Assembly: GCF_003697845.1 (NCBI RefSeq)
Contig: NZ_RDQE01000006.1
Location: 62,001 to 126,000 of the forward strand
Source of the DNA: Halobellus captivus
Lineage (GTDB): Archaea; Halobacteriota; Halobacteria; Halobacteriales; Haloferacaceae
Direction: 5' to 3'
DNA length: 64,000 nt
Within the stretch, counting starts at the first letter, position 1, and the number at the start of each line of letters is the position of its first letter. The notes beneath the pieces are model-generated. The model searched no databases. It had not been told where the DNA came from and was given only the letters and a program-made list of their open reading frames with translations. Both the position numbers and the translations under genes were made by a program. This document shows, piece by piece, positions 6,452-10,534 of the stretch.

Positions 6452-7372
6452 TCAGGCGGATCCCCCCTCGGTGGGGTCTTCAACCGCTCCGTCGTCGACG
6501 TTGTGGTCGGCCGCGTTCCGATCGGCGACGTTCCGATCGGCGGCGTTCTGATCGGCGACGTCCCCGTCGCGGTCCCCGACCGCGTCCACGTACCGGTACG
6601 AGAGGTACACGCAGCCGAGCGCGAGAGCGGTCCCGAACATCACGTCCGTGAGCCAGTGGATCCCGAGGTACATCGTCGAGACGACCACGGAGCCGGCGAT
6701 CCACCAGGCTATCGGCGTCCATCTGGGATACCTTCCGTGCGTGAGCGCGGCGAAGGTCGCGACGGTCACCGACAGGGAGGTGTGAAGCGAGGGGAACACG
6801 TTCGTCTCGACGTTCACCTCCCCGGTGAGCGTCTGGAAGTTCGGGTTGAACGTGTACAGAAGCGAGGTCACGGCGTCCGGCATCAGGTTCCGCGGGCCGT
6901 ACGCCAACACGACGGTGTAGAGCACGAGCCCGATCGCGTAGTTGAGCGTGTACGCCACGATCAACCGCTTCAGCGTCGTCGACTCCGGAAGCGCCGCGTA
7001 CGCGATGAAGGGGAACACGAGCAGGAACGCGTACCCGAACACGTAGACGGACGAGAAGTACAGCGTCAGCCGTGGGCTCTGGAAGGTCCCCTGGAGCCAG
7101 GCGACGAAGTTCCCCTCCAGCGCGAAGATGAGCCCCGTCAGTCGCAGGCCGAACACTTCCGATATCGACTGGAGCGCGGGCCGACCGATCCCGCTCACGA
7201 CGAGCACGACGATCAGGGCGGCGACCTCCCGACGCGACTCGCGGAGGTACGGAACCAGGTTCTCGCCGACCCCGTACAGCCGCCGCGGGCCGACGACGGC
7301 GACGCCGGCGACGAGGCACATCGCGGCCACCCAGAACAGGACGCTCGTGACGACCGGGAGGAGCGGAGTCAT
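6452..7372 (-). CDS. PAP2-superfamily membrane phosphatase or lipid transferase
   Basis: A 306-residue polytopic membrane protein with about six hydrophobic segments. PAP2-type catalytic motifs are visible: NVFPSLHTSLS (motif 2 region, conserved SxH) and YLGIHWLTDV (motif 3, conserved His and Asp). This arrangement resembles archaeal phosphatidate phosphatase and inositol-phosphorylceramide-synthase-like proteins acting on lipid phosphates. The substrate cannot be read from sequence. The start ATG at 7372 overlaps the stop of the upstream binding-protein gene by four bases, indicating translational coupling. The hydrophilic C-terminus is encoded partly by four 15-base tandem units. Confidence 0.8.
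   Translation of the reverse strand: MTPLLPVVTSVLFWVAAMCLVAGVAVVGPRRLYGVGENLVPYLRESRREVAALIVVLVVSGIGRPALQSISEVFGLRLTGLIFALEGNFVAWLQGTFQSPRLTLYFSSVYVFGYAFLLVFPFIAYAALPESTTLKRLIVAYTLNYAIGLVLYTVVLAYGPRNLMPDAVTSLLYTFNPNFQTLTGEVNVETNVFPSLHTSLSVTVATFAALTHGRYPRWTPIAWWIAGSVVVSTMYLGIHWLTDVMFGTALALGCVYLSYRYVDAVGDRDGDVADQNAADRNVADRNAADHNVDDGAVEDPTEGGSA
6500..6559. repeat. Four tandem 15-base units encoding a 5-residue repeat
   Basis: Four units of about GTTCCGATCGGCGAC lie head to tail at 6500-6514, 6515-6529, 6530-6544 and 6545-6559; the first is the most diverged. They are in frame near the 3' end of the PAP2-family gene on the minus strand and encode a degenerate five-residue repeat of the NVADR/NAADH type. 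Length change by replication slippage would keep the frame and lengthen only the disordered cytosolic tail. Confidence 0.8.
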
Positions 7373-9225
7373 TGGTCGCGCGCGAGCAGTCTGTCGGACT
7401 CGTCGAACCGATAGCCGATCTCCCGGAGGGCCTCGCGCGTCGCCTCCGCGTCGAGCGACCCGTCCTCCCCGCGGAACGGATGTACCGGGTCCTCCTCGCG
7501 GTCGTCGTCCCACCGGAGGTTCCCGGGAACCCACTCGGGCGACGTCGCCAGCGGACTGGTGGCCGGTCGAGCGTACCCGGCGAACGCGTCGTCGACGATG
7601 GTCGACTTGTCCACGAGCGACGCGACGATGCCACGAAACCGCGGGTTCGAAAGCGGCGCGCGCCGCGCGTTATACCCCACGTAGTAGAACGCGGCCGACT
7701 GCGTGCTCACGAGGCGGGCATCGCTCTCACGGCCGATCCTGGGCACCGAGTCCGGCCCGAGGTTCGAGACCGTTCCGTCGGCGTAGCCGTCGGCGACCCA
7801 CTGTACCGCGGAGACGTCCGATCCGACGATCGCGACCTCGAGGCGTTCGAACGCCGGCTTCCCACGGTACGGTGCAGGGATCGACTCCCCGTCCTCGGTC
7901 CCGGCCGTCGATTCGGCGGTGTCCCCGTCGGCCTCGGCGTCCTCGCTACCGTCCGAGCCGGAACGAACGAGGAAGTGGTCGGGGTTTCGTTCGAAGACCA
8001 CCCGCTCTCCGGGAGTCGACTCGATGAACCGCATCGGACCGCTGCCGACCGGGTCCTCGTTGGACGTGACGAGCGCCTCCGTGGTCTCGGTGTCGAACTC
8101 GAACCCGCCGACCGTCGCCGTCTCGGCCCGGTCGATCCAGACGTGTCTCGGCAGGATCGGGACCTGTAGGGCGCGTTCGGCGACGGCCTCGTCGGCCCCT
8201 CCGACGATCAGTCGAACGGTCGAATCGTCGACGACGTCGGTCGACTCCACGATCGACCCGCGTCCCCGGAACTGTGGGGCGGGAACCGGCATCTCGGTGC
8301 CCCCCATCGAGGTGTCCCGGAGGAACTCGTACGTGAACGCGACGTCCTCCGCGGTCAGCGGCTCGCCGTCGTGCCACGTCGAGTCCCGCAGTCCGATCTC
8401 GATCGTCTCCGGGTCGATCCACTCCCACTCGCGCGCGAGCCACGGGATCGTGGTCCCGTCGTCGACGATCGCGAGCCGGTCGTACAGCATCGACATGAAC
8501 GTCCCGTATCGGCGATATTCGGCGGCGATCGGGTTCCAGTTCTCGGTGATTCGTCCGTCCGTGGTCGCGAGCCGGAGGGTGACCGGCTCGCCGTCGTCCT
8601 CGTCTCGCTCGTCGACGAGATCCATGGTGAGCAGCCCGGTCGCGGATATCGGCGGTCCCGTCTCCCAACCGACGAACCGGTCCGTCCGCGCCGCCGCCAG
8701 CGCGTCCGGGAACGCGACCACGGTGAACGGCTGTTTCTCACACACCGACTCCTGGAGGTCGGAGACGATCCGGGCCCGGTCGGACTCGGCCGCGGCCCGT
8801 TGCTGCTCGAGGAGTTCGTCGACGTCGAGGTCGGTGAAACCGAACGGGTTCTGCCACCCCGCCTCGGCGGTGAACTTCGAGTGGATGAGCCCGTAGAGTA
8901 CGTCGGGATCGAACGGGAGTACCTCCGTGTACTGGCCGACGTACACGTCGAAGTCGTGGTTGAGGAGCACCGTCCGGTGGAGGTCGGTCCCGTTCATCGT
9001 CTCGACCCGCGTGTCGACGCCGACGGCGTCCAGGTTCTCGGCGAGTGCGCGCGCGATCCGGATCCCGTTGGGGTCCTCGTCGGCCGGCGTGGTTCGGATC
9101 TCCAACACGAGCTGTGAGGAACCCTCACGTCCGGCGATGTTCCGCGCCCGCCCGGCACAGCCGGCGCTCCCGACAGCGAGGCCGATCCCCGCGAGCGCGT
9201 CGCGTCGGCTGATCCGCCCCGTCAT
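7369..9225 (-). CDS. Oligopeptide-type (SBP family 5) binding lipoprotein with permuted lobes
   Basis: A 618-residue exported protein. The N-terminus has a twin-arginine stretch (ISRRDALAG) and a lipobox with lipid-attachment Cys at about residue 23 (SAGC). The order of parts is unusual. Residues about 38-200 read like the C-terminal lobe of family 5 binding proteins (RIARALAENLDAVGV, FDVYVGQY, DLDVDELL). Residues about 220-600 then read like the normal N-terminal part (WHDGEPLTAEDVAFTYEF, PILPRHVW, YYVGYNAR). The protein ends at the point that normally leads into the C-terminal lobe. No permease or ATPase genes adjoin. It overlaps the PAP2 gene by four bases. The ligand is unknown. Confidence 0.8.
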   Translation of the reverse strand: MTGRISRRDALAGIGLAVGSAGCAGRARNIAGREGSSQLVLEIRTTPADEDPNGIRIARALAENLDAVGVDTRVETMNGTDLHRTVLLNHDFDVYVGQYTEVLPFDPDVLYGLIHSKFTAEAGWQNPFGFTDLDVDELLEQQRAAAESDRARIVSDLQESVCEKQPFTVVAFPDALAAARTDRFVGWETGPPISATGLLTMDLVDERDEDDGEPVTLRLATTDGRITENWNPIAAEYRRYGTFMSMLYDRLAIVDDGTTIPWLAREWEWIDPETIEIGLRDSTWHDGEPLTAEDVAFTYEFLRDTSMGGTEMPVPAPQFRGRGSIVESTDVVDDSTVRLIVGGADEAVAERALQVPILPRHVWIDRAETATVGGFEFDTETTEALVTSNEDPVGSGPMRFIESTPGERVVFERNPDHFLVRSGSDGSEDAEADGDTAESTAGTEDGESIPAPYRGKPAFERLEVAIVGSDVSAVQWVADGYADGTVSNLGPDSVPRIGRESDARLVSTQSAAFYYVGYNARRAPLSNPRFRGIVASLVDKSTIVDDAFAGYARPATSPLATSPEWVPGNLRWDDDREEDPVHPFRGEDGSLDAEATREALREIGYRFDESDRLLARDQ

Positions 9226-9277: not shown

Positions 9278-10534
9278 TTAAAGCACGTCGGCGAGGGGGA
9301 GCGCGAGCGCGACGATCCACGCGAGCACGCCGGCGGCGAGGATCGAGCGGTCTCCCTCCGCCCGCCCGACGGCGATCAGCCCGAGGGCGGCCAGTACCGC
9401 CATGCGATGGACGATCAGGCCGGGAGGTACCGCCACCCCGAGCGCGGCGAAGTCGAGGACGAACCCCGAACCGAGCCCCAACACGACCCCGAGGAACACG
9501 GCGGTCGGGTCCGACCGTCGGCTCCCGTGGACGACGAGCGCCGGCAGCCCGACGGCGATCACGAGGTACAGCGGTGCGGCGATGGCCTTCGGCGCGAGTT
9601 CGGGATACGCGGTCTCCAGGGCGACGCCCAGGTGTCGGACCGAGACGAAGGCCCCCGCGAGTGCCACGCCGAGAACCGCCGCCTCCGCGTGTCGTTCCGC
9701 CTCCCGTCGCAGCCGACTCGCCGTCTCCACGGCCGCCTCGCGCGTCCGTCTCCGGAGGAGCGCCCCGACCGCCGGGAGGAGAACGGCGAGTTCGATCACG
9801 GAGAGCCAGCCGTCGCTCCGGCCGCCGTCGATCCCGCGGTACTCCCGGCTGACCTCCGCGGCGATCGGATCGTCGATGAACTCGTCCTCGAGCCGGGTCG
9901 CCGGCTCGTCGATCTCGGGGACGGTGTGACGGAGACGGAACCAGTCGTAGTACTCCTCGTGGATCTGTACCGCGGTATACGCGCCGTCGGGCGACTCGTA
10001 CGCCCGGATGTGGTCACGGGTACCCAGATACGTGCCGTCGTGGACCTCGAAGGTGACCGCCTTCCAGGTGCCGCCGTCGGGTCCCCTGAAATACGAGTAC
10101 CGGTTCGATCCGCTGGCGTTCTCCCAATTGCCTTCGACGATGTCCCGGACGGGATCCGATCGATCCTCGTTTTCGATCGGGTCCGTCCGCCCCGTCGCGT
10201 TGTCGTCCCCGACCAGCGGTGCGCGTCCGTCCTCGTCGGTCGCCTCCTGCTCGTCGGTCTCCCGCCAGTCGGCCTCCGGGTCAGTGGTGAGTGCGCGCTC
10301 GACCGTCTCGGCGTCGTTCCGGAACACGACGTTGATCGCGAGGGTCTGTCCGTAGACGGACCGGCTTCGGCTCGTGTACGGCCACAGCTCGTAGTCCCCC
10401 TCTATCTCGATCAGGGACTCCGCGGGGACGTCGCCGGCCTCCGGCCCTTGAACGGTCCCGCCGAGGATCCCCGAGAGGACCAGCCCTGCTCCGACGACGA
10501 GCAGGAGGGCCACGGCGACCGTCTTCCGTTGCAT
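9278..10534 (-). CDS. Membrane protein with an LssY-C-like extracellular domain (tentative)
   Basis: A 418-residue protein. An N-terminal hydrophobic segment (about residues 5-27) leads into a roughly 210-residue soluble domain, then about five to six membrane segments (residues 240-418). The soluble part contains NVVFRNDAETVERAL, an aromatic TWKAVTFEVHDGTYLGTR stretch and HTVPEIDEPATRLEDEFI. This order resembles the LssY C-terminal domain often found with PAP2 phosphatases; I infer this by eye and hold it loosely. It lies just upstream of the binding-lipoprotein/PAP2 pair on the same strand with 52 bases between, so a functional cluster is plausible. Confidence 0.55.
   Translation of the reverse strand: MQRKTVAVALLLVVGAGLVLSGILGGTVQGPEAGDVPAESLIEIEGDYELWPYTSRSRSVYGQTLAINVVFRNDAETVERALTTDPEADWRETDEQEATDEDGRAPLVGDDNATGRTDPIENEDRSDPVRDIVEGNWENASGSNRYSYFRGPDGGTWKAVTFEVHDGTYLGTRDHIRAYESPDGAYTAVQIHEEYYDWFRLRHTVPEIDEPATRLEDEFIDDPIAAEVSREYRGIDGGRSDGWLSVIELAVLLPAVGALLRRRTREAAVETASRLRREAERHAEAAVLGVALAGAFVSVRHLGVALETAYPELAPKAIAAPLYLVIAVGLPALVVHGSRRSDPTAVFLGVVLGLGSGFVLDFAALGVAVPPGLIVHRMAVLAALGLIAVGRAEGDRSILAAGVLAWIVALALPLADVL

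Follow-up and report, generated by a model that had tools for sequence, protein, structure and literature searches.

A family 5 solute-binding lipoprotein with circularly permuted lobe order in Halobellus captivus, and its permuted relatives in haloarchaea and bacteria

TpMglB-2 (Tp0684) of Treponema pallidum is a glucose-binding lipoprotein of "cluster Bc" and a natural circular permutant (PMC4990184). It is the nearest precedent for the protein described here, P0001, as both are permuted, bilobed and membrane-tethered solute-binding proteins (SBPs) within a wider family, and TpMglB-2 retains ligand binding and closing. However, TpMglB-2 has the cluster B sugar-binding fold, with its cut in the N lobe and an extra hinge crossing, and its kind occurs in spirochaetes and Gram-positives, whereas the class of P0001 belongs to cluster C (family 5), is cut in lobe II and occurs in archaea and several bacterial phyla. 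Membership of P0001 in cluster Bc was considered and rejected, since its sequence and fold matches are to family 5/cluster C. The canonical cluster C proteins DppA, OppA, AppA, NikA and EppA share with P0001 the sequence family, the motifs and the predicted fold. P0001 differs from them in the order of its two segments (B-A instead of A-B), in an anchor predicted to lie on lobe II and in the DppA ligand residues, which are not conserved; its clade also differs in having no adjacent permease or ATPase gene. A third comparison is with permuted receptors encoded in Dpp/Opp operons, two in the same genome (L006 and L007) and others on bacterial plasmids, which have the cut site and B-A order of P0001 but share about 20-30% identity with it and are followed by permease and ATPase genes. 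We found no description of permuted family 5 receptors in the open-access literature covered by our search. With natural permuted SBPs already known from TpMglB-2 in cluster B, the permuted family 5 class comes as an addition.

The stretch of DNA analyzed (the window, 64,000 nucleotides from Halobellus captivus) encodes P0001, a protein of 618 aa, on the minus strand at positions 7369..9225; all window features below lie on this strand. By inspection of its sequence, P0001 is equipped for export and membrane anchoring like other archaeal SBPs, having a Tat-type RR signal peptide with a lipobox (SAG-C23) and Cys23 as the predicted lipid-anchor residue (9157..9225). The SRR..SAGC pattern of this signal is conserved in orthologues, and the NCBIfam TAT_signal_seq model matches it at E 0.058, below its cut-off. 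A short tether follows (residues 24-37, GRARNIAGREGSSQ; 9115..9156), which is conserved in the genus; the predicted model has a pLDDT below 50 up to residue 33. Segment B (residues 38-205; 8611..9114), supported by PF00496 positions 287-363, profile matches in the PDB and hhalign, holds the C-terminal return and a portion of lobe II, which together end the chain of canonical family 5 proteins. It leads into a new junction (8590..8610) where, by profile comparison with relatives, the former C- and N-termini are joined; this linker has about 8 residues in P0001 and from a few to about 75 among relatives. Segment A (residues 213-612; 7390..8589), supported by PF00496 positions 3-278, PDB matches from query residue 228 and the A profile, comprises lobe I and the first part of lobe II and corresponds to the initial two thirds of a canonical chain. 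The new C-terminus (LLARDQ and the stop; 7369..7389) comes after an "LxEAGY..(D)G" loop.

According to the original prediction, the C-terminal-lobe motifs of a family 5 protein come first in this chain, which stops where a normal chain would enter that lobe. All the quoted motifs were found in this order: IARALAENLDAVGV, FDVYVGQY and DLDVDELL of the C-lobe first, then WHDGEPLTAEDV, PILPRHVW and YVGYNAR, with EALREIGYRFDES at the end. PF00496 matches P0001 with 150 bits against a curated cut-off of 32.4, and its two parts are inverted: model positions 3-278 lie at residues 260-605, while positions 287-363 lie N-terminal to them, at window positions 8878-9114. In a rotation scan of the mature chain against a profile built from 41 canonical family 5 proteins only, the score rose from 223 bits unrotated to 294 bits after rotation near residue 213; shuffled sequences gave at most 1.1 bits, and two canonical proteins peaked at zero rotation. 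The inverted Pfam order and the gain on rotation bear out the predicted circular permutation. Comparison of sequences thus confirms that P0001 belongs to the family 5 binding proteins (SBP_bac_5, cluster C) and that its chain is circularly permuted.

Both lobes are present, the A and B segments each being matched by a profile. A profile of residues 36-206 and their relatives matched 71 PDB sequences at E <= 0.001; among the 60 of these that were listed, the names are those of family 5 proteins, and the match lies close to the C-terminal end of the chain (357-479 in DppA). Likewise, hhalign aligns residues 36-206 with positions 388-520 of P0005, a canonical protein of Rhizobium. These matches speak to another reading, in which residues 38-205 are an unrelated domain added in front of a complete ordinary SBP, as might be thought from the Pfam report on the single protein, which names mainly the later stretch. 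Residues 36-206 match C-terminal parts of family 5 proteins only, and a profile search of the chain beyond B found no second C-terminal part, the protein ending at the equivalent of DppA residue 339. Rotation, moreover, restores one contiguous match. An added N-terminal domain is refuted at this level of comparison, and we give it hardly any chance. With a permuted profile of 505 positions, P0001 scored 522 bits over positions 3-505 in one uninterrupted B-A match. Permuted proteins score 320-640 bits end to end with this profile, against less than about 270 bits, over the A part only, for canonical proteins.

All orthologues of P0001 examined keep the B-A order. Almost every genome tested within the genus has one, with 57-85% identity, and so do many of the other families of the order, with 38-49% identity. 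Both halves of P0001 have a dN/dS of about 0.25-0.4, that is, they are under purifying selection. This conservation and selection argue against both a faulty assembly and a fusion in decay. An artefactual order, through misassembly, frameshift fusion of genes or gene pieces, or a decaying rearrangement, could draw on one homologue, on a Neorhizobium plasmid, that is split over two frames. Against this, the same order occurs in unbroken frames in dozens of independent assemblies, including named complete genomes and plasmids, and the signal peptide precedes B in every haloarchaeal permuted protein aligned. Fusion artefact and pseudogene are both refuted by the conservation of orthologues and by dN/dS, and the likelihood left to them is practically nil.

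AlphaFold2 modelled the whole of P0001 (28 sequences) with a pLDDT of 85 and a pTM of 0.84. The best 50 PDB fold matches of this model are all family 5 binding proteins, with a TM score by target of about 0.5, which is no higher because a sequential alignment uses just part of a rotated chain; for a full model, a sequential fold search cannot by itself demonstrate a permutation. Segment B folded alone gave a weak model (pLDDT 67), whose best fold match had an E-value of 1.7e-3 and whose matches were nearly all family 5. No permuted solved chain was found in the PDB, where matches to the permuted profile start in its A part, no earlier than position 150 of 505, and correspond to the N-terminal regions of the matched chains.

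Mapping onto known structures indicates where the chain was opened. On DppA, the A part of the permuted profile reaches to residue 339 and B sets in shortly before residue 357; the cut maps to about 339|345 of the mature protein. The hinge strands of EppA comprise residues 295-302 and 531-538, with domain III (residues 303-530) between them (PMC7312458). Residues 57-176 of P0001 align to EppA chain residues 421-534, which places the cut near EppA residues 395-400, inside domain III. Measured along the chain, each hinge strand is thus about 90-130 residues distant from the new termini. It had been predicted that both termini and the lipid anchor would move to the hinge; in terms of sequence this part was not supported, as the mapping on DppA and EppA puts the cut inside lobe II. 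In the lobe II sheet, the first strand directly follows the cut, and its far end leads to R355 of DppA (precursor R383), which contacts the ligand (PMC12136057). With the other end of this strand at a ligand contact, the new termini should face away from the cleft, and the anchor would shift to lobe II instead of lobe I or the hinge. The former termini, being joined by a short linker, must be close together in the canonical fold.

In DppA, the dipeptide termini are bound by an arginine and an aspartate, R383 and D436 in precursor numbering (PMC12136057). In the alignment with DppA, neither of these salt-bridge residues (R355/R383 and D408/D436) appears conserved in P0001, so that P0001 probably does not bind a dipeptide in the manner of DppA. 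It departs from a DppA-type dipeptide receptor in two respects, the Arg and Asp being unmatched and no permease or ATPase genes adjoining.

The gene for P0001 is followed by one for a PAP2 (PAP2_3) membrane phosphatase-like protein of 306 aa (6452..7372; PF14378, PF01569), the SBP stop and the PAP2 start overlapping as ATGA. PAP2 lies directly downstream of the SBP in 64 of the 76 entries of the P0001 clade, duplicates included. The other 12 comprise two cut by the end of the sequence retrieved, eight second copies belonging to SBP-PAP2-SBP arrangements with PAP2 between the two SBPs, and two that lack PAP2 (L048 and L050). The SBP-PAP2 pair is conserved across haloarchaeal families, and the PSLH and H...D motifs of PAP2 are invariant in all 67 partners (67/67). 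Likeness to the PAP2 superfamily (PF14378 PAP2_3, PF01569), through its PSxH and H...D motifs, concerns this downstream partner only, and its match to the NCBIfam PgpB model is far below the cut-off of that model. In the Natrinema-type arrangement (L087-L092, L047, L049), two permuted SBPs flank one PAP2 gene. On the upstream side, a membrane protein of 418 aa (9278..10534), with no Pfam or NCBIfam match, neighbours the permuted SBP across the sampled genomes of the genus.

DppB/C genes adjoin none of the 76 entries of the clade (0/76), and there is no permease or ATPase gene beside the window gene. Outside the P0001 clade, DppB/DppC-like genes directly follow the permuted protein in 50 of 64 entries (some being duplicates or having short flanks), and PAP2 directly follows in none of the 64. 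In the same genome, L006 and L007 are each the leading gene of an operon of the Dpp/Opp type that also encodes permeases and ATPases. Plasmids of Nitratireductor, Roseomonas and Ketogulonicigenium carry annotated SBP-permease-permease-ATPase-ATPase operons, which adjoin M28 peptidase, hydantoinase/oxoprolinase or IclR genes. Most permuted relatives would thus be receptors of complete Dpp/Opp-type importers.

From the lack of transporter genes alongside and the translational coupling to PAP2, we infer that P0001 serves the PAP2 enzyme, a partnership that we hold to be somewhat better than an even prospect. P0001 would capture a solute outside the membrane, perhaps a phosphorylated or lipid-linked compound, and hand it to the PAP2 enzyme or regulate it. 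P0001 could instead be an orphan receptor feeding a Dpp/Opp permease encoded elsewhere, with PAP2 as an incidental neighbour; family 5 receptors often serve distant permeases, and the permuted relatives in its own genome sit in full importer operons. PAP2 is, however, coupled to the SBP across many families of the order, no permease gene adjoins the clade, and the start-stop overlap argues for co-production of the two proteins. We regard the orphan receptor as a serious though less probable alternative to a PAP2 partnership.

The genome of H. captivus encodes eight family 5 proteins, three of which share one permutation site: P0001, L006 (C1:229 kb) and L007 (C1:267 kb). Permuted proteins were surveyed with the 505-position profile at E <= 1e-95; 5-15 candidates were scored per genome, so that the counts below are lower bounds, and some samples include the seed genome. 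The count of homologues with this order across haloarchaea, which the original prediction had proposed, gave permuted proteins in 38 of 53 Halobacteriales genomes. None was found at this threshold in the other genomes of the phylum sample, outside Halobacteriales. Among bacteria, permuted proteins were detected in Alphaproteobacteria (7/142 genomes), Actinomycetota (3/149), Desulfobacterota (3/99) and Bacillota (7/101); the Pseudomonadota sample gave 1/299, this one being the seed genome itself, and Chloroflexota 0/101 at E <= 1e-95. The permuted class is thus present in most sampled Halobacteriales and sporadic in Alphaproteobacteria, Actinomycetota, Desulfobacterota and Bacillota. The split homologue on the Neorhizobium galegae plasmid (L077:5598-7365) is annotated as a hypothetical protein and an SBP.

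To compare the histories of permuted and canonical proteins, we built a first tree of 94 proteins, in which both halves had been put in the same order before alignment. Only 3 changes of order were counted in this tree, against 30.6 expected by shuffling labels, and most permuted rows cluster. Such clustering favours a single permutation from which all permuted family 5 proteins descend by vertical and horizontal spread. In a 49-row set, though, the AU test rejected a single clade of all permuted rows (p-AU 0.0006), because one protein of the Bacillota sample, L196, groups with a canonical protein (L114), of which it is the sister (support 99); without L196, one permuted clade was not rejected (p-AU 0.29). 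The haloarchaeal L006 type is also placed among canonical rows, with weaker support. These trees are quick ones with long branches, and the tested group was chosen after the first tree had been seen; resting on them, two or more separate permutations of this one loop are likely, and a single origin seems improbable to us. L196 and L197, both permuted lipoproteins, are candidates for an independent permutation at this loop.

The B-A order probably arose when a family 5 gene was duplicated in tandem and the first A and the last B were then lost. A Thermoplasmata contig (L100:121-7224) carries one frame of 2368 aa in which family 5 halves alternate as A-B-A-B, together with PKD domains. Such a tandem could yield B-A by losing its ends, and we present it as an illustration, not as a demonstrated ancestor. 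The authors of the TpMglB-2 work propose tethering as a possible reason for the permutation (PMC4990184). As the alphaproteobacterial permuted proteins have a plain signal peptide without a lipobox Cys, tethering cannot be the general reason.

Taken as a whole, P0001 is very probably a lipid-anchored, permuted two-lobed cluster C SBP with a normal fold, tethered through lobe II, and its gene is translationally coupled to that of PAP2. In lobe I, the short linker would have joined the two original termini, and in lobe II the loop that precedes the first strand of the sheet would have been opened to give the new ones. P0001 would then fold into the ordinary bilobed form and presumably close on its ligand as usual, the membrane tether running through lobe II and not lobe I. 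A broader proposal, that permutation at the lobe II loop occurred at least twice, perhaps three times, and was retained in five phyla, and that one haloarchaeal branch left ABC import to become a lipid-anchored sensor or delivery subunit of PAP2, is put forward tentatively, at rather less than an even chance.

The permuted class is far wider than the TpMglB-2 case and has so far been annotated as ordinary "ABC transporter substrate-binding protein". Judging from gene context, permuted receptors work with ordinary permeases, and they therefore offer natural tests of what tether position and chain order mean for the flytrap and for docking. They would also be ready-made permuted scaffolds for biosensors, and recurrence at the same loop would be a test case for how permutations arise. 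The branch coupled to PAP2 points to an SBP that may no longer serve transport.
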